From: Bacillota bacterium
GTDB taxonomy: Bacteria > Bacillota > UBA4882 > UBA10575
Reading direction: 5' to 3'
NCBI GenBank assembly: GCA_012837715.1
Contig: DUQR01000045.1
Span: forward strand, 1-64,000
Length of the DNA stretch: 64,000 nucleotides
Position numbers and translations under genes: made by a program. Positions 25,412 through 64,000 of the stretch are shown here, piece by piece. How positions within the stretch are numbered: the stretch's first letter is position 1; every line of letters begins with the position of its first letter. The notes under the pieces were generated by a model. It searched no databases, was not told where the DNA came from, and saw only the letters and a list, made by a program, of their open reading frames with translations.

Positions 25412-26608
25412 ATGCAATCTTTAAATTACCGTTTCATCCTTTATTCCCTTTTGCTTTTAATTTTTTTATTTGTAACGCCAGTTGTCCAAGGCATGCCGGC
25501 TGACATTAAAGGTCATTGGGCGGAAGAGAGTGTTAAAAGCCTGATCGAAGAGGAGATCTTAAACGGTTATCCCGACGGTTCTTTCCGGCCGGACCAAAGT
25601 ATCACCCGGGCGGAACTGGCTAAAACCTTAGCCGTCGCCTATGGGCTCAAAGGTTCCAACCAGAATGTTCAATTTCCGGATACGGATCAACACTGGGCAG
25701 AAGAATATATCGCCGCTTTAAACGAAGCAAAGATTATAACCGGTTATCCGGACGGTAATTTCAAACCGGAAGCACCGATCACCCGGGCGGAAATGGTGAC
25801 CATGTTGACCCGGCTCCTCAACGTAGATACCGGCGAAGAACAGTACACCATCGCTTTTGCGCCCACCTTTCCCGATTTAGCCAAAGACCACTGGGCTTTT
25901 TACCAGACTGAACTAGCGGCTAAATTAGGACTCTTGCCCCGCTATTACGGGCCCGAATTCAGTCCTTCCCGGTTAGCCAGCCGGGCTGATACCGCTTGGA
26001 TGCTTCAACAATTACGCAACCTGAAAACCGTCCGGGGTCAAGTTTTGGATCAACCGGAAGTCGGGACCAATCTGGTCACCGTCCAACCGGAAGAAGAGGG
26101 TGAGATCCAAATCGCTGTTATTCCGTCGGAAGCGGTTGTTTTCCGGAACAACATTACGACTACACCCGAAGCTTTATCCAAAGACGATCAGATTACCATC
26201 TTTTATAACCGTAACGATGAACCGGCAGTCGTCAAAGCCTTTGGTGAAGTCAACCAAAAGGACCTCCTCGGCCGATTAAGCGCCCTAGTAAAAGGAAGGC
26301 TCACGGCTGAACAGATTTCTTCCATCTTAGCCGGTAATTGGGATGATGTTAAGGAAGGAATTAAGGGTGAACTATATAATCAACTACTCAATATTGGACT
26401 CACGGCTGAAGAAGCCGAATCGATTCTCGTCCAAGACTGGGCATATCTTGATACCATCAGCCGGGACCGTCTGGCCAGTGCCCTCTCTGCTTATTTGGGG
26501 ATCACGAAAGATTTAAGTGGCGCCATCTTAAGCCGGAACTGGGATCTGATCAAAGAATATGCCCGGATTGAACTCACCGCAATGGCCTTAGGAAGAATCT
26601 TAGGCTAA
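25412..26608 (+). CDS. SLH-domain envelope protein with helical C-terminal repeats
   Basis: Secreted cell-wall protein. Signal peptide about residues 1-30, then three S-layer-homology domains: about 32-78 (HWAEESVKSLIEEEILNGYP), 88-140 (HWAEEYIAALNEAKIITGYP) and a degenerate third near 150-205. SLH domains bind secondary cell-wall polymers. A beta-rich segment (about 210-280) follows. The last 116 residues hold three consecutive units of about 33 residues with a shared IL..(N/D)W(D/A) core plus a partial fourth. No catalytic domain is seen. AAGGAGTG precedes the ATG. Converges with the L,D-transpeptidase gene. Confidence 0.85.
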   Translation: MQSLNYRFILYSLLLLIFLFVTPVVQGMPADIKGHWAEESVKSLIEEEILNGYPDGSFRPDQSITRAELAKTLAVAYGLKGSNQNVQFPDTDQHWAEEYIAALNEAKIITGYPDGNFKPEAPITRAEMVTMLTRLLNVDTGEEQYTIAFAPTFPDLAKDHWAFYQTELAAKLGLLPRYYGPEFSPSRLASRADTAWMLQQLRNLKTVRGQVLDQPEVGTNLVTVQPEEEGEIQIAVIPSEAVVFRNNITTTPEALSKDDQITIFYNRNDEPAVVKAFGEVNQKDLLGRLSALVKGRLTAEQISSILAGNWDDVKEGIKGELYNQLLNIGLTAEEAESILVQDWAYLDTISRDRLASALSAYLGITKDLSGAILSRNWDLIKEYARIELTAMALGRILG

Positions 26609-38738: not shown

Positions 38739-38774
38739 TATCAAGAAGATATCTTGAAAGGAAGTGATTCTGTT

Positions 38775-40262
38775 TTGAATGCGCTAAGTTCAAAGTTTAA
38801 AGAAGTTATCTCCACTGTCCTTCCGATTACCATCATCGTTCTCATCCTGCATTTTACGATTACTCCTTTGGAAACGCCGCTTTTACTCCGTTTTCTCCTG
38901 GGTGCTTTTTTGATCACAATTGGCTTAGCCATTTTTCTGTTCGGGGTTGATCTTGGTATTACCCCAATCGGTTCGCTGCTCGGTGAGACCGTGGCGAAAA
39001 CCAATAAATTAACAGTAATTATATTAGCCGGCTTATTGTTAGGCTTTATGATCTCCATCGCCGAGCCGGATCTCCATGTTTTAGCCGGCCAGGTTGACAT
39101 GGTTTCCGCAGGGCAGATCCCAAAAGCGGTAATCGTGGTAGTCGTCTCCCTTGGGATTGCCCTTATGCTGGCCGTCGGTTTTTTAAGAACCGTTTACAAT
39201 CTTGCGTTATCCAAAGTATTTACCTTGGCTTATGCTGTTATTTTTCTTTTATCCTTATTTACTTCCGCTGAATTTTTGGCGATCGCTTTTGATTCCTCCG
39301 GCGCCACCACCGGCGCGTTAACCGTGCCTTTCGTTTTGGCCTTAGCCTTGGGGATCTCTTCTTTAAATAAGGATAGTCTTGTCTCCGAAAGCGGAAGTTT
39401 TGGTTTAGTCGGCATTATCTCCTCCGGCCCGATCATGGCGGTAACCCTCATGAGTATCCTTTCCAAAACTGACCGGATTGTGGGGAGCCTAGAACTTCAA
39501 CTCACCCAATCCCCTTCTCTATTGGCGCCTTTCCTCATAATACTCCCCTCCAACAGCTGGGACGCCTTTATTGCCCTCCTCCCGCTGCTGCTGGTTTTTC
39601 TTGTCGGCCAGAAGTTAGTCTTTAAACTACCGAAAAAATCCGCCCGTCGCGTATTAAAAGGCCTGCTTTATACCTTCATTGGCTTAGTCCTCTTTCTTAC
39701 GGGAGTACAAGCGGGGTTCTTGGATGTAGGCAGTCTCATCGGCTACCGGTTAGCTTCCTCCAGCCGTCCCTTGGTGGTGATGATCGGGTTAGTCCTAGGT
39801 TTGGTTACGGTCCTTGCCGAGCCGGCGGTACACGTTTTAACCAACCAGATCGAAGAGGTGACCAGTGGTTACGTTAAAAGAAAGGTTGTTCTCTTTGCTC
39901 TTTCCATCGGCGTGGGTTTAGCGGTCGCCCTTTCTATTCTCCGGATTGTCACTCCCGCCATCCAACTCTGGCACTATTTATTACCCGGTTTTTTCCTCGC
40001 CATTGTCCTCACCTATTTTGTTCCCGAGTTATTCGTCGGCATTGCCTTTGATGCGGGCGGCGTCGCCTCGGGACCAATGACGGCCACTTTTATCTTGGCC
40101 TTTGCGCAAGGGGTGGCGGAAGCAGCGGAGGGAGCCAATGTGTTAATCGATGGCTTCGGAGTCATCGCCATGGTGGCGTTAACTCCTTTACTCACACTCC
40201 AACTTTTAGGTTATCTATATAAAGTTAAATCTACAGAAGGAGGGGTTAAGGCTAATGGATAA
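38775..40262 (+). CDS. DUF1538 integral membrane protein, probable transporter
   Basis: About twelve membrane helices in two homologous halves (about residues 1-240 and 265-495). Each half carries AEPDLHVLAGQ- or AEPAVHVLTNQ-type and FDSSGATTGALTVPF- or FDAGGVASGPMTATF-type motifs, which suggests an inverted or tandem duplication typical of transporters. Substrate is unknown. Start TTG at 38775, following AGGAAGTGA. Overlaps the tandem PII gene by eight bases, so the two are coupled and the PII protein probably regulates it. Confidence 0.85.
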   Translation: MNALSSKFKEVISTVLPITIIVLILHFTITPLETPLLLRFLLGAFLITIGLAIFLFGVDLGITPIGSLLGETVAKTNKLTVIILAGLLLGFMISIAEPDLHVLAGQVDMVSAGQIPKAVIVVVVSLGIALMLAVGFLRTVYNLALSKVFTLAYAVIFLLSLFTSAEFLAIAFDSSGATTGALTVPFVLALALGISSLNKDSLVSESGSFGLVGIISSGPIMAVTLMSILSKTDRIVGSLELQLTQSPSLLAPFLIILPSNSWDAFIALLPLLLVFLVGQKLVFKLPKKSARRVLKGLLYTFIGLVLFLTGVQAGFLDVGSLIGYRLASSSRPLVVMIGLVLGLVTVLAEPAVHVLTNQIEEVTSGYVKRKVVLFALSIGVGLAVALSILRIVTPAIQLWHYLLPGFFLAIVLTYFVPELFVGIAFDAGGVASGPMTATFILAFAQGVAEAAEGANVLIDGFGVIAMVALTPLLTLQLLGYLYKVKSTEGGVKANG

Positions 40263-40926
40263 GCACCGGGAAGAACTTGAGTTTTCTTTAATCTACGTGG
40301 TTGTTGATTACGGCCAAGGTAGCAAAATATTGGCCCATGCGAAACGTTCCGGCGTAACCGGAGGAACCATTTTTTTTGGAAAAGGGACCGTCCACAACCG
40401 CCTCTTGGAATTTCTTTCCTTAACAGAAATCCGTAAAGAGATCGTGCTGATGGTTGCGGAAAAAAATGTGGCCAGACAGGCATTGTTCGAGATCAATAAA
40501 GAATTTTCCTTAGCCAAGCCCAATCATGGGATTGCCTTCAGTATTCCAGTCATTAATTTTTTTGGTTCCCACACCTTTGGGGACCAACCGTTTAAAGAGA
40601 ATAGAGGTGTGATAAAAAACATGTATAATGCGGTTTTTGTCATTGTGGATAAAGGAAAAGGCGAAGCGGTTATTGATGCAGCCAAAGAAAAGGGGGCCAA
40701 AGGAGGAACGATCATCCATGCTCGCGGATCGGGTATTCATAAATCTATTAAATTATTTGGCATGGAAATCGAGCCGGAAAAAGATATTGCCCTCATCCTC
40801 TGTGAACAGCAGCTTACCGCAGGTATTGTCACCCACATCCGCGCCGAACTTCATATTGACCAACCGGGTAATGGGATTATCTTCACCCAAAGGGTAGAGG
40901 AGACTTACGGGTTACGGAAAGAATAA
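40255..40926 (+). CDS. Tandem P-II-like regulatory protein
   Basis: A 223-residue protein with two PII-like ferredoxin-fold domains (about 10-110 and 120-220). Each carries a KAGVTGGTI-like loop (RSGVTGGTIFFGKGTV; KEKGAKGGTIIHARGSG) and a terminal strand (GIAFSIPV; GIIFTQRV). PII proteins sense nucleotides and small metabolites and control transporters by direct binding. Gene start ATG at 40255 overlaps the DUF1538 stop, with GAAGGAGGGG upstream. The classical T-loop uridylylation Tyr is not in an obvious place. Strong candidate regulator of the adjacent transporter. Confidence 0.82.
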   Translation: MDKHREELEFSLIYVVVDYGQGSKILAHAKRSGVTGGTIFFGKGTVHNRLLEFLSLTEIRKEIVLMVAEKNVARQALFEINKEFSLAKPNHGIAFSIPVINFFGSHTFGDQPFKENRGVIKNMYNAVFVIVDKGKGEAVIDAAKEKGAKGGTIIHARGSGIHKSIKLFGMEIEPEKDIALILCEQQLTAGIVTHIRAELHIDQPGNGIIFTQRVEETYGLRKE

Positions 40927-40962: not shown

Positions 40963-41163
40963 TCAGTATTCTTCGTTGGAAGAATAGAGCTGGTTTTCAT
41001 CAACGGTGGTGACTTGTTCTTGACAGAGTGGACAGGTCACCACTTCGTCGTCTTCATCATAGCCTAAATGAATCATTGTTCCACAGTATGGACATTTCAC
41101 ACCCTCTTCGGCATTATCCGCTCTTTCCGGAAGACTAAGCGGATGCCGTCCCTCTTTGGTCAT
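40963..41163 (-). CDS. Small zinc-ribbon protein
   Basis: 66-residue acidic protein with two CxxC pairs (CPYCGTM and CPLCQEQ) 17 residues apart, a likely structural zinc ribbon, and an acidic tail. No enzymatic domain. Reminiscent of small zinc-ribbon carriers, but function is unknown. GGGGGAGG precedes the ATG. Divergent from the spore-protein gene. Confidence 0.6.
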   Translation of the reverse strand: MTKEGRHPLSLPERADNAEEGVKCPYCGTMIHLGYDEDDEVVTCPLCQEQVTTVDENQLYSSNEEY

Positions 41164-41281
41164 CTCTTTTCCTCCCCCGTTTTTTTATATTGTCCCTTTC
41201 TTCACTACTTACCTATTCATCCTTTTTTTTAATGGGTTTTTCCAGCGCCACCCGGTTATATTATCGGTGGGAGGTGGAGCT

Positions 41282-41467
41282 GTGGCCCGACGTAGTATCG
41301 TTTCCGATGAGGTCAAATACGAAATAGCCAAAGAACTTGGTTTCGCCGACCGCATTCAACGTAACGGAAATAACTACGACTACAGCAATCTCACTACCCG
41401 CGAGGCAGGCCTCATTGTGCGTGGCTTGATCGAAAAAGCTGAACAGTTGATGGCCTCCCCGAAATAG
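41282..41467 (+). CDS. Alpha/beta-type small acid-soluble spore protein (SspF-like)
   Basis: 61-residue protein matching the short SASP pattern: MARRSIVSDEVKYEIAKELG at the N terminus, and REAGLIVRGLIEKAEQLM at the C terminus. SASPs coat DNA in dormant spores and are degraded at germination. The GTG at 41282 has GGGAGGTGG upstream. The longer frame opening at 41156 is unsupported. Supports an endospore-forming host. No convincing sigma-G promoter was seen. Confidence 0.75.
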   Translation: MARRSIVSDEVKYEIAKELGFADRIQRNGNNYDYSNLTTREAGLIVRGLIEKAEQLMASPK

Positions 41468-41499
41468 GAACAAGGGGTGTGTCCCTACACCCCTTGTTC
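41468..41499 (+). terminator. Terminator of the spore-protein gene
   Basis: Perfect 13-bp stem, GAACAAGGGGTGT (41468-41480) with ACACCCCTTGTTC (41487-41499), followed by CATTTTT. Directly abuts the stop codon. Confidence 0.8.
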
Positions 41500-41679
41500 C
41501 CATTTTTGCCTTCCGGCCAGGTCTTGATCTTTTCACCCTCTTTTAAAGTTTACCATAAATTCCATTCCTGCCTTGAGCAGGTGTTTTTATTAATTTAGAG
41601 AAGTTTAAGGAACAAAAGGTGCAAACGGCTATTTAGGCCAGTCGTGCAAAATTTGCTGAAAGAAATGGAGGAATCATCT

Positions 41680-42837
41680 TTGCTACGCCTTACCAAAACC
41701 AACCTATTACTCTGGTGTTTATTTACCCTGTTATTCCTCGGCTTTTTGGGCGTTTCCCCTACTCAGGCTGTTGAAGATAATGTTATGAAACGCCTCTCTA
41801 ATTTGGAAAGTCGCTGGGGCCATCTCCAGCTCGGCGGAGAATTCAGTCTTCTTGCGGATTATAAGCAACGGGCTTTTGAAGAATACCGGACCCCGGATCT
41901 GAAAAACTATTTGAACCTTTATTTTGATGCGCAAATCGATCGCAACTTCTACTTCTATCTTTTGCTTTCCCACTATGATAATTACGGATACCTTAACCAA
42001 CTCTATGTGAACGAAGCGGCTGTCCGTTACCGTTCGCCCCAATTCTTATTGGATTTGGGAAAATTCAAATTTACTCTGGATCCTCTAGGCTTAATTGCCG
42101 ATCACTCCGGCTCACCGCTTCAAGGTATGGCCATCCAAACCGGTAATAACAAAATTTATTTCGGCGGTTATTATTCCCGGCTTTTTCTGAATCCGGCAAA
42201 AATCGATCCGGAAAAAATCGAGATTACCAGTGATGATCAGTTCGCCATAAGGGTGGCCTTTCCGAAACCCCAATATATGCTAGGAATGACCTTAGTATCC
42301 ACCCCGTCGGGGGACCTCAGTGAAACCGCGATTGGGCTCGACCTGATTACCAATGTTTCCGGCGGCGCTCTCCAAACTGAAGTGGCCTGGTATAAGCCAG
42401 GAGTGGACAGTTATCAAACCTACAAGCATGATGGCGCTTTCGGCGGGTTAGCAACCTGGAGCAAAAATGTGGCTGCGACAACTTACACCTTAAATACCTG
42501 GTGTTTTGAGAAAGGCTTTGCTCCCATCTCTTCGGTTTTGAACGACAGTTTTCTGGAAAAGGGTGAAATCTTCGCCAACAACTCATACGGGATCGGCGGT
42601 GGTTTACAGCGGAAACTCGAAAATAACTGGGAGACAACTGTAAAAGCCGGTCTCTTACTTTCACCGGACCAAACTTTCTCTGGACCGCAGTTAACTTTCT
42701 CCGGTCGGTTACGGAAAAGCTTTTCGATCGCTACCAACCTGGAATTTGGTTTTGATTCAGGGTTTGAAGCTGATGTGGATAAGATTAACCTCCACCGGTA
42801 CAATCGTTTATTCGTTCAGTTTAACACCGTATTTTAA
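41680..42837 (+). CDS. Putative outer-membrane beta-barrel protein
   Basis: 385 residues. Signal peptide about residues 1-30 with a TQA cleavage site (start TTG with GGAGG 8 nt upstream). The mature part is made of alternating-polarity short strands separated by turns (for example YFDAQIDRNFYFYLLLSHYDN and FGGLATWSKNVAATTYTLNT) and has no membrane helices. It ends LFVQFNTVF, an aromatic-terminated strand like the C-terminal signal recognised by the BAM machinery. Such proteins are expected in a diderm. The pore substrate is unknown. A periplasmic or surface beta protein in a monoderm is the alternative. Confidence 0.6.
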   Translation: MLRLTKTNLLLWCLFTLLFLGFLGVSPTQAVEDNVMKRLSNLESRWGHLQLGGEFSLLADYKQRAFEEYRTPDLKNYLNLYFDAQIDRNFYFYLLLSHYDNYGYLNQLYVNEAAVRYRSPQFLLDLGKFKFTLDPLGLIADHSGSPLQGMAIQTGNNKIYFGGYYSRLFLNPAKIDPEKIEITSDDQFAIRVAFPKPQYMLGMTLVSTPSGDLSETAIGLDLITNVSGGALQTEVAWYKPGVDSYQTYKHDGAFGGLATWSKNVAATTYTLNTWCFEKGFAPISSVLNDSFLEKGEIFANNSYGIGGGLQRKLENNWETTVKAGLLLSPDQTFSGPQLTFSGRLRKSFSIATNLEFGFDSGFEADVDKINLHRYNRLFVQFNTVF

Positions 42838-42862: not shown

Positions 42863-43498
42863 TTGTTAAAAAGGAGATCAACCACCCTACTTTTGACCAT
42901 GCTGCTTATGTTCACCCTGGTGGTGACCACCGGCGCCGCCGCTCCACCCTTATCTGGGGTTAAAGTAGTTGTTGATGCGGGACATGGTGGCTGGGACCCG
43001 GGCGCCGTAGGCGTCAACGGTCTAACCGAAAAAGAGATTAACTTACAGGTGGCAAAGGCCCTCCGCAACTGTCTGGTGGAGTACGGGGGGGCAATCGTGG
43101 AAATGACGAGAATCGAGGATCGGTATGTTTCCTTGGCGTCCCGGGTAAAGAAGGCGAATTTAAGCGGTGCGGATCGTTTCATCTCGATACACCATAACGG
43201 TTCGGTGAATCCCAACCATAATGGAACAGCCGTTTATTCGGCGAAGAATGGAAGCTGGCAGAGTCATGATTTAAGAAACAAAGTGCAAAAACGGTTGCGA
43301 CAAATGACCGGTCTCCGCGATTTAGGCGCTAATACCGCCAATTTCTACGTATTGCGGAACACAACCATGCCGGCGATTCTAACGGAAGCCTCTTTTATCA
43401 CCAATCCCAAAGAAGAGCAGCGGTTAAGAGATCCGGGATATCTTTGGCGGGAAGCCTTTTATATTTACAAAGGCCTTGTTGACCACATGGGTAATTAA
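42863..43498 (+). CDS. N-acetylmuramoyl-L-alanine amidase (Amidase_3)
   Basis: Zinc amidase cleaving the MurNAc-L-Ala bond. Signal peptide about 1-25. VVVDAGHGGWDPGAVG (about 30-45) holds the first zinc His, GLTEKEINLQVAKAL the Glu, SIHHNGSVN (about 108) the second His, and ILTEASFITNPKEE the catalytic Glu (about 172). 211 residues. TTG at 42863 follows AAGGAGG at 42848-42854. It probably belongs with the porin-like gene in one unit and ends at a strong terminator. Confidence 0.9.
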   Translation: MLKRRSTTLLLTMLLMFTLVVTTGAAAPPLSGVKVVVDAGHGGWDPGAVGVNGLTEKEINLQVAKALRNCLVEYGGAIVEMTRIEDRYVSLASRVKKANLSGADRFISIHHNGSVNPNHNGTAVYSAKNGSWQSHDLRNKVQKRLRQMTGLRDLGANTANFYVLRNTTMPAILTEASFITNPKEEQRLRDPGYLWREAFYIYKGLVDHMGN

Positions 43499-43553
43499 AA
43501 TTGGCCGGACCACCCTGGACGGCCCCAACCAGCCAGTCGACCTTGGCTGACCG

Positions 43554-43589
43554 AAAGTGGATACCGATGATCGGTATCCACTTTTTTTT
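43554..43589 (+). terminator. Terminator after the amidase gene
   Basis: A 14-bp stem (43554-43567 with 43571-43584, loop TGA) continues into a run of eight T. Clear plus-strand intrinsic terminator. Confidence 0.85.
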
Positions 43590-43764: not shown

Positions 43765-43861
43765 TGCATTTTATTACTGGGGTGGTATTTTGTGGCAGGA
43801 TCATAAACAATTATGTCAAATACTTATGTAATCTTATTATTAATAATTTGGGGTGGTAATT

Positions 43862-44905
43862 ATGGTCCGAAAAAATTTTACTCTCCTGGCCGTTCTTCTT
43901 GTCACCAGTTTTTTCTTGAGCGGAGGCTGCTTGCGTAAACCTTACTTCCCTGGGCAAGACCTGGGAACGCTCCGCCTTCGGATCAAAGAAGCGGAAAATA
44001 CCCAAACTCAGCAGGAATTCTCTTTACTGGCCAAGAGTAATGAGCTTGAGAAACTGGAAATTATCCTGACAAATAAGGAATATCTCAAGAAGAAAGAGAT
44101 CCAGCCCTACCTAGGAGAGCATGTGGTGACCTTTGATTCCCTGTATCCCGGCACCTGGAAAATTCAAGTCAATGGCTACGACCGGGAGGATGATGTTATC
44201 TTCTACGGTGAGGACACCCGGTCAATTCCACCGGGGAAAACCGTTGAGGCTTCCTTGATGATTAAACCAGCGCCCGGATGGGTAATGGTTACGGTGGATC
44301 TTGCGCTCCTCCAGGCTGAAGGTTATACGGTCACCAGTGGCAAGTTTTATGTTTATAAAGATCCCAGCAACAACAGGTCCACCTCCTTTGACCTGCACTT
44401 GGAGGGGAATTACCTTAAAAACAGTAAAGAGATCAAGCTGGCGGAAGGCACCTATGAAACCGATATTTATATCCCGCAAAAAACCGGTGCTATTTACGGG
44501 TGTCATTATGGACTTATCCAGATCCGGTCCGGAAAAGAAACAGCCATCCATCTTGATTCCGATGCGGGCTTGATTATTGACGCCGTAATTGACGCCAACC
44601 CGGCTACCCCGGAGAATTTTAGCGGGACACTGATCGGCGATCAAGTTTACCTTAGTTGGGATCCGGTTTTCGAAAGCGATCTTGTCCTTTATAACATCTA
44701 CCGTTCAAATAAAGAGGGGGTTCTCAAACTCCACGATCAAGTGGATAAAGATACCCATTCCTTCACGGAAGTCGTTTCGCCCGGAGATTTTGGCAATGGT
44801 TGCCTCAAGTACGCCGTCAGTAGTTTAGACTGGAGCGGGAATAATAGTATCTGGACGGAACCGGTAGTTTTCTATTTAGCGGAATCTTCTTCTCCGCTAA
44901 ATTGA
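43862..44905 (+). CDS. Lipoprotein with fibronectin type III-like C-terminal domain
   Basis: 347-residue exported lipoprotein of unknown function. Lipobox LSGGC after a hydrophobic segment (Cys about residue 22). A central beta-rich region carries a carboxypeptidase-regulatory-like fold (about 45-230), and a fibronectin type III domain is near the end (VYLSWDPVFESDLVLYNIYR). Adhesion or polymer-binding is plausible. ATG at 43862 with GGGGTGG upstream. Confidence 0.72.
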   Translation: MVRKNFTLLAVLLVTSFFLSGGCLRKPYFPGQDLGTLRLRIKEAENTQTQQEFSLLAKSNELEKLEIILTNKEYLKKKEIQPYLGEHVVTFDSLYPGTWKIQVNGYDREDDVIFYGEDTRSIPPGKTVEASLMIKPAPGWVMVTVDLALLQAEGYTVTSGKFYVYKDPSNNRSTSFDLHLEGNYLKNSKEIKLAEGTYETDIYIPQKTGAIYGCHYGLIQIRSGKETAIHLDSDAGLIIDAVIDANPATPENFSGTLIGDQVYLSWDPVFESDLVLYNIYRSNKEGVLKLHDQVDKDTHSFTEVVSPGDFGNGCLKYAVSSLDWSGNNSIWTEPVVFYLAESSSPLN

Positions 44906-62274: not shown

Positions 62275-62931
62275 TTATTGGGCGGGCAGGAAAACCCCGG
62301 CTACCCCAATTAAGGCTACAAAAAGCAGTAAAAACCGGTTAGTCTTTTTTTCTTGCGCCAATTCTGCCTGTAAACTCTCGATCTTATCCTTCTGTTTCTC
62401 TTGGTTTTTCTCGAGGTTATAGAGTTGGACTTCCAAGCGATTTTTCTCTTGCAATAACTCGGCAACCTGACTCCGAAGACCAACAATCTCCGACCGTAAG
62501 CCCTTTGCCTCTGCGGAGAGCAATTGCAGGCTGGAAGTATTTTTGGTCTGGTCTTCCGCCAAGATTAACTTTCCTTGCTCGATTTGGACCAGACGCGCTT
62601 CTAACTCTTTGTTTTTAAGTGTAAGGAGAACCAACTCATTCTGAAATTCGTTGGAGAGTTTACGGAGTAGAGCCACATCCTCTTGTCCGCCGCGGATGCC
62701 ACCTTCTCCTAAACTCGTTAATAATTTCGCCACGACCAGCGCGAGAGTATAACGGTCGACCGGATTGTTCCCCTGAAAAGTACCGTCTTCGTAGAGTTCA
62801 AGGTAACCGTTGTCCACCAGTTTCTTTACGGCCTGGTAAGCCCAATCCGGCACATCGGAATAGGGACGGCTTTGGCCGAGCGCCGGTAGGGCGGTGAGAA
62901 GGAAGCATAAACCGAGAACAATGGTTTTCAT
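62275..62931 (-). CDS. SLH / coiled-coil protein with C-terminal membrane anchor (Omp-alpha-like)
   Basis: 218 residues. Signal peptide about 1-20, one SLH domain (about 25-75, YSDVPDWAYQAVKKLVDNGYLE), a heptad-rich coiled coil (about 90-195), and a hydrophobic C-terminal segment (FLLLFVALIGVAGVFLP). The layout resembles Thermotoga Omp-alpha, which tethers the outer membrane to the wall by SLH, coiled coil and an anchor. ATG 62931 follows a coupled TAAATGGGGG. The role is inferred from architecture only. Confidence 0.68.
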   Translation of the reverse strand: MKTIVLGLCFLLTALPALGQSRPYSDVPDWAYQAVKKLVDNGYLELYEDGTFQGNNPVDRYTLALVVAKLLTSLGEGGIRGGQEDVALLRKLSNEFQNELVLLTLKNKELEARLVQIEQGKLILAEDQTKNTSSLQLLSAEAKGLRSEIVGLRSQVAELLQEKNRLEVQLYNLEKNQEKQKDKIESLQAELAQEKKTNRFLLLFVALIGVAGVFLPAQ

Positions 62932-62938
62932 CCCCCAT

Positions 62939-64000
62939 TTACTGGTCCACCTTAATTGTTTCAATCCGCACACCCCCTTGTTGATTGATGGTGATCTTTA
63001 AGCCTTCCACTTCGTACGTGGGGATCTTCGCTACTGTACTGTCCAGTTTAAACTTGGCCGGTTTCAGCACTGCTACTCCCGGACTTTTCCCCAATTGGAT
63101 GTAGACCGTTGCCAGCGACGAACTGACCATTGGCGCTTGCTGTCGCGCGCCGCCGATTCCGGTCACTACGCCGGTGAGACTGTCAATCGTCCCTGGCTGC
63201 CAGGGAGTCAGCGCCTGGTTCTCAATGAAAAACAACCCCCTTGATACCCTAATTATCTCCATTAAGTCCGGATTATACAGAAAATCGAATTCCGCCCCCG
63301 TTAACATCGGCAGATTTTCCACACGGACTTCGACCGGGAGGATTTCTCCCGCCTTCGCTGGTTTTAAGGGAACTAAACGAACCTTAGGGATAAGAATGGG
63401 TAAACGTACCCCGGCGATATACATCACCGGTTTAGTGGAGTTAGATTCAAATTGAACGCCAAGATAAGAACGTTTTCCGATTCCTTCTGGTGTCAGATAC
63501 CATGTTATCTTGTATTCTTCTCCCGGTTTTAAATTCCCGATATAACGCCGGAGGATCTCTTTTGGCGCCGGTTGCATTCCTTCTCCCAGCTGTAGACTGC
63601 CGATCACCCCGTAGGCTTCCGACTCACCGGTGTTTTTAATTACAGCGCTCACCGGGTATGGATCCGGATCCAGCCGTTCGTCGACCACCCGTGGCGCCGG
63701 AGGCGGAGTTACGCTTAGGGTTAAAGCGGCTGGTTTGATCACTCGAATACTGCGCTCCACTTTATTTTCGGGGATATTAATGGCGGAAGCCACCACCGAA
63801 AAAGGTTCGAGGGTGCCAAAAACCGTTCCGGTTGGTCTCACTTCCCAGTGTAACTGGGTAACTTCTCCTGGATCCAGTTTCCCAATGTAGATCTCCCGCG
63901 GTTTACTTTCGGCAATGCGCAAAGCCGGAGGTAGATTCAAACGGGCCCGTACACTCATGGCTGGAGCAAGGCCGGTGTTTTGAATATAAGCCACCACCGA
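62939..64000 (-). CDS. Partial large envelope protein with CARDB-like and cohesin-like domains
   Basis: Frame open to the window end, so the 5' part is missing. The visible 354 residues contain at least two CARDB/COG1361-like beta-sandwich segments (YIQNTGLAPAMSVRARLNLP; VIKNTGESEAYGVIGSLQLG) and a C-terminal cohesin-like domain (VEVRVENLPMLTGAEFDFLY; DLMEIIRVSRG). Cohesins bind dockerins or, in similar folds, envelope polymers. Ends eight bases before the SLH/coiled-coil start, so the pair may form one envelope unit. Confidence 0.65.
   Translation of the reverse strand, partial: SVVAYIQNTGLAPAMSVRARLNLPPALRIAESKPREIYIGKLDPGEVTQLHWEVRPTGTVFGTLEPFSVVASAINIPENKVERSIRVIKPAALTLSVTPPPAPRVVDERLDPDPYPVSAVIKNTGESEAYGVIGSLQLGEGMQPAPKEILRRYIGNLKPGEEYKITWYLTPEGIGKRSYLGVQFESNSTKPVMYIAGVRLPILIPKVRLVPLKPAKAGEILPVEVRVENLPMLTGAEFDFLYNPDLMEIIRVSRGLFFIENQALTPWQPGTIDSLTGVVTGIGGARQQAPMVSSSLATVYIQLGKSPGVAVLKPAKFKLDSTVAKIPTYEVEGLKITINQQGGVRIETIKVDQ

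Follow-up and report, generated by a model that had tools for sequence, protein, structure and literature searches.

The window, i.e. the whole stretch of 64,000 nucleotides that was analysed, is part of a draft genome assembly of 2.44 Mb with 98.68% completeness and 0.03% contamination. A predicted outer-membrane porin gene is located between a gene for a small acid-soluble spore protein (SASP) and a gene for a secreted amidase. The features of this region are:

41156–41467, forward strand: alpha/beta-type SASP (PF00269, 25.5 bits, cut-off 22)
41467–41500, forward strand: intrinsic-terminator-like hairpin with a 15-pair stem, between the SASP gene and the porin unit
41550–41602, forward strand: conserved non-coding DNA block of about 53 bp upstream of the porin gene, from a ten-locus alignment
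41680–42837, forward strand: predicted outer-membrane porin with signal peptide, helix, 18-strand barrel and C-terminal Phe
42863–43498, forward strand: secreted single-domain N-acetylmuramoyl-L-alanine amidase (Amidase_3, PF01520, E 2e-49)
43553–43585, forward strand: intrinsic-terminator-like hairpin with a 15-pair stem and a T-run, after the amidase gene
43853–44905, forward strand: putative lipoprotein of 350 aa with the lipobox LSGGC and no Pfam match

The porin reading frame encodes 385 amino acids and ends with the stop codon at 42835–42837. TTG at 41680, preceded by ggaggaatcatc, was taken as the start because the ribosome-binding site ggagga points to it. The same ggagga–TTG layout was seen at the porin genes of genus relatives. 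The signal peptide is followed by the mature N-terminus VEDNVMKRLSNLESRWGHLQLGGEFSLL, a short amphipathic helix at residues ~35–43 and the predicted barrel at residues 49–384. The alignment of 24 homologues had 19 invariant columns, including the last residue, F385, and a terminal Phe was also present in additional, more distant full-length homologues. The window porin had no match in Pfam or NCBIfam, and PDB sequence searches with the single sequence and with a profile yielded nothing convincing. One of the 24 family members matched the homotrimeric porin model DESULF_POR1 (NF033939) with E 6.4e-06.

The structure was predicted with AlphaFold2 from 18 sequences, the window porin and 17 homologues. 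The model had 18 strands, a mean pLDDT of 80.0 and a pTM of 0.74. In a Foldseek search against the PDB, 266 matches had E<=0.001; the best 50 of these were all outer-membrane porins or exporters. The best match was the barrel of OmpM1 of Veillonella parvula (8bys/8bym; E 1.7e-11, TM 0.54/0.63); MOMP, chitoporin, AlgE and Occ porins were among the matches listed after it. A homologue of about 28% identity from another family of the same class was folded separately, with 18 strands, a pLDDT of 71.9 and a clear helix at residues 36–53 ahead of the strands. OmpM1 was again the best match (TM up to 0.71), followed by OmpU, Omp32, PorB and OmpF. The two models are not fully independent because their alignments share sequences, and the global TM-scores to solved porins were moderate with 0.5–0.7. 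The matches point to a closed barrel of 18 predicted strands, possibly 16 plus two short ones. An earlier note had described a signal peptide and an outer-membrane-like protein ending in Phe, and had named structure prediction as the check. The reading frame, the signal peptide and F385 were all found as described, and a porin-like barrel was predicted for both the window protein and its distant homologue.

The genome encodes the machinery for an outer membrane. Omp85 was matched six times, with four matches above the curated cut-off. Two full BamA copies with POTRA domains and an Omp85 barrel were present (E 1.7e-36 and 7.3e-34), the second of them on contig C17. One cluster had the order TamB, BamA (POTRA and Omp85), OmpH/Skp, a 296-aa protein, LpxD, LptF/G, a 733-aa protein, LptC and LptA. 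A second cluster comprised LpxC, FabZ, LpxA, LpxI, an LptA-like protein, LptB, LptF/G and a DUF3084 protein. LpxC was detected with E 2.7e-87, and the lipid A set sought, LpxA, LpxC and LpxD plus LpxH or LpxI, was represented by LpxC, LpxA, LpxD and LpxI. The LptD model PF04453 had no match in the genome, in a test that is insensitive because its positive control matched only in E. coli and Caulobacter. The 733-aa protein between LptF/G and LptC is likely the LptD, a candidate assignment based on its signal peptide, a weak LptD_N match at its start (E 0.0044, below the cut-off) and its location. The diderm envelope proposed in the earlier note is thus supported by BamA, TamB, Skp/OmpH, Lpx and Lpt genes. 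From its list of bamA, lptD and LPS genes, bamA, the lpx genes and other lpt genes were recovered, and lptD was represented by the sub-threshold candidate only. The 296-aa protein between Skp and LpxD (L039:9742-10629, reverse strand) has one N-terminal membrane segment, a long charged helical region and no family match. Omp85-like barrels besides the two BamA copies were located on C23, C53, C40 and C22 of the same genome (G000; L040–L043), and some of these adjoin a peptidase/propeller protein or an acyltransferase/TPR protein.

The same genome carries sporulation genes. SpoIVA was detected with E 1.9e-112 and was present in 39 of 41 relatives; together with the SASP gene, it provides the pair of markers used for endospore formers. 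The SASP coding part likely begins near 41255, and three families of the class (f1, f2 and f5) keep the gene next to the porin. The spore SASP reported next to the barrel gene was confirmed by a PF00269 match above the cut-off. It had also been claimed that only a few clades of Bacillota combine sporulation with a diderm envelope. Both gene sets were indeed found together, and the relatives are uncultured Bacillota, labelled neither as Negativicutes nor as Halanaerobiales. One MAG of the same genus bears the label Hydrogenispora sp.; NCBI places Hydrogenispora in Bacillota incertae sedis, and no paper in the literature searched connects it with a diderm envelope and an outer membrane. According to PMC11456536, Taib et al. 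2020 reported outer-membrane gene clusters in all 46 genomes of uncultured ‘Limnochordia’, which according to the same citing source were mostly derived from digesters and mud. Limnochorda pilosa is named a Gram-negative spore-former in a title cited in PMC11448272. A diderm sporeformer is therefore already known in kind from Limnochordia-type Bacillota.

The amidase gene begins some 25 bases downstream of the porin stop codon. The two genes are bracketed by the terminator-like hairpins, an arrangement consistent with a two-gene unit. In addition to f1, the porin–amidase order was present in families f2, f6, f53, f88 and f119. The amidases behind porin homologues of other families were 56–67% identical to the window amidase and scored 205–255 bits against it, and none exceeded 110 bits against the genome's three remaining Amidase_3 proteins. 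These scores indicate that the pair is orthologous and of old origin. The pairing is not obligatory, since in f5, a family of the same class, and in genus g3 no amidase was located behind the porin. An assignment of the linked amidase to CwlD was rejected with 119–123 bits against the TIGR02883 cut-off of 221.55; among the four Amidase_3 proteins of the genome it was the least CwlD-like, and the best one reached 216 bits. In most family-level relatives, the putative lipoprotein gene is the one that follows. Further upstream in the window, at 38754–40926, a DUF1538 membrane protein is followed by a PII-like protein, and these were near the porin in only some members of the genus.

In ten loci, the block at 41550–41602 showed an identity of 0.78–0.98 per ten columns, compared with 0.27–0.69 in its upstream flank. 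It occurs once in the window, and a more divergent version of it is present in genus g3. An Rfam search of the block gave no credible match, and a conserved hairpin was rejected in the absence of a conserved RNA fold. Judged from its conservation, the block is probably a promoter or a regulator site. Its core GCAGGnATTTTT...GAGAA is, as we take it, reminiscent of sigma-H promoters, and the block may possibly be a sigma-H-like or other conserved promoter.

Of 41 related genomes, 28 had a member of the porin family, and all 28 carry LpxC. Close homologues were present in all genomes examined of the same genus and family, and distant ones in the class and phylum. A profile search in 300 genomes of the phylum identified 25 with the porin and 63 with LpxC. 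Twenty-four of the 25 porin-positive genomes also had LpxC, and the exception was 72% complete. The co-occurrence had a Fisher p of 1.9e-17, which overstates independence because the genomes are related. Nearly all class members with LpxC had one porin copy per genome. Conservation in the relatives and near confinement to LpxC-bearing genomes place the porin finding beyond chance. One genome of the same class (G017, family f3), 95% complete, lacked both LpxC and the porin and encoded SpoIVA; this gene content suggests a possible outer-membrane loss within the class.

OmpM is built from an SLH domain at the N-terminus, followed by a linker and a barrel. It has been reported as a widespread tether of diderm Terrabacteria, including Limnochordia (PMC10628300). 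In the current model, OmpM unites tethering with nutrient uptake, so that a cell losing it could shed its outer membrane (PMC10628300). Of these OmpM hallmarks, the barrel was predicted in the window porin, with OmpM1 as best match, and no SLH domain was found in the window porin or its aligned homologues. Genome-wide, SLH was present in only three proteins. One, at 25412–26608 of the window, has three SLH repeats and no barrel. Another is located near the end of the window:

62275–62973, reverse strand: candidate wall-binding envelope protein with signal peptide, SLH, coiled coil and C-terminal hydrophobic helix, without a barrel

The third, on C27 (G000:C27 near 28736), has the same composition, also without a barrel, and is likewise a candidate wall-binding envelope protein. 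One of the SLH–coiled-coil proteins matched the SLH–stalk part of a cyanobacterial SLH porin model. The only OmpA-domain protein of the genome was rejected as Pal, its sequence being MotB-like. Because the SLH proteins lack a barrel and this protein is MotB-like, no OmpM with SLH and barrel, and no Pal either, was detected genome-wide, at Pfam/NCBIfam sensitivity in a draft that is 98.7% complete.

These results suggest that the window gene very probably encodes a general-diffusion porin of the LPS outer membrane in a spore-forming diderm member of the Bacillota, expressed together with the amidase, which would be periplasmic. The porin family, SLH-less and with an amidase partner, has no Pfam entry. 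The signal peptide would direct the porin to the periplasm, where its C-terminal strand with the final Phe would be recognised by Skp/OmpH and BamA, both encoded in the genome, for insertion of the barrel. The short helix ahead of the barrel may be the remnant or the base of an OmpM-like trimer stalk. As the porin has no SLH domain, it should only permeabilise the membrane, and another protein would have to tether it. Porin and amidase are probably transcribed together from the porin's own promoter. We infer that the amidase most likely trims peptidoglycan at sites of outer-membrane and protein insertion or during cell separation, which would be its role in the pairing. NlpD and AmiC of E. coli are an example of how amidases may be tied to the outer membrane (PMC5533458); for the porin–amidase pair this serves as an analogy.

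The porin could also be a degenerate OmpM orthologue that lost its SLH domain in this lineage, with the tether moved to SLH–coiled-coil proteins such as that at 62275–62973. OmpM1 was the best structural match for two divergent members, both models have a helix ahead of the barrel, and the genome encodes barrel-less SLH–coiled-coil proteins, one of them resembling the SLH–stalk part of a cyanobacterial porin model. However, the profile found no sequence match to OmpM or to any PDB chain at E<=10, structural identity was only 13–14%, and porins generally look alike. The full-length homologues read, even very distant ones, also lacked an SLH-like N-terminus, so any SLH loss would have been early. 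Such an origin is considered doubtful. A substrate-specific channel or polysaccharide exporter of the AlgE, chitoporin or Occ type was regarded as improbable. Its 18 predicted strands resemble OprD/Occ and AlgE, and AlgE, Occ and chitoporin were among the first Foldseek matches of the window model, but the second model matched general 16-strand porins first. The neighbours are SASP, amidase and lipoprotein genes instead of sugar or export genes, and the single copy in nearly all LpxC-bearing class members is housekeeping-like.

An outer-layer protein specific to spores, produced in sporulation together with the SASP and a cortex amidase (CwlD), would explain why the SASP adjacency is kept in three families and why the linked amidase is of the CwlD fold family. 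This was judged very unlikely: a strong terminator-like hairpin separates the SASP gene from the porin, the linked amidase has the lowest CwlD score of the four (119 bits), and outside the class the porin–amidase pair had no SASP match in the 3.7–4.2 kb loci examined. The lack of a Pfam match would also fit a beta-rich protein without a barrel, either secreted or part of an S-layer, in a monoderm. With a barrel predicted in both models and outer-membrane machinery in the genome, this explanation is contradicted and scarcely credible.

A tentative proposal, which we hold to be rather doubtful, is that nutrient uptake and wall tethering reside on separate proteins in this deep lineage of diderm Bacillota. 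The SLH-less porin with its dedicated, co-inherited amidase would be the pore module, and the barrel-less SLH–coiled-coil proteins would act as tethers. If true, this separation would be an intermediate or an alternative to the OmpM arrangement, which has been proposed as ancestral and also as a weak point for outer-membrane loss. How outer membranes were lost is a question in which diderm Bacillota take a central place. A near-complete LPS outer-membrane gene set with an SLH-less porin and no detected OmpM or Pal makes the OmpM model testable. The conserved pair further suggests that growth of the outer membrane and the wall may be coupled; such coupling was not found in the literature searched.

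Among known systems, OmpM1 shares with the window porin the matching barrel, a short helix ahead of it and a diderm Bacillota host. It differs by its SLH domain, a long coiled-coil stalk and 16 strands; the window porin lacks SLH, is predicted to have only a short helix and no long stalk, has 18 predicted strands, is only 13–14% identical and is paired with an amidase. The SLH porins of cyanobacteria and Deinococcus (por_somb NF033921, SlpA) are likewise outer-membrane porins of Terrabacteria with a helix ahead of the barrel. They carry SLH themselves, whereas the window's genome encodes SLH–coiled-coil proteins separately and without a barrel. DESULF_POR1 is connected to the family through the one member that matched it, and the window porin itself does not match. 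The linked amidase has the Amidase_3 fold and a signal peptide in common with AmiA/AmiC and CwlD. In contrast to these, it remains below the NCBIfam equivalog cut-offs, comprises one catalytic domain with no further domain recognised, and is linked to a porin.
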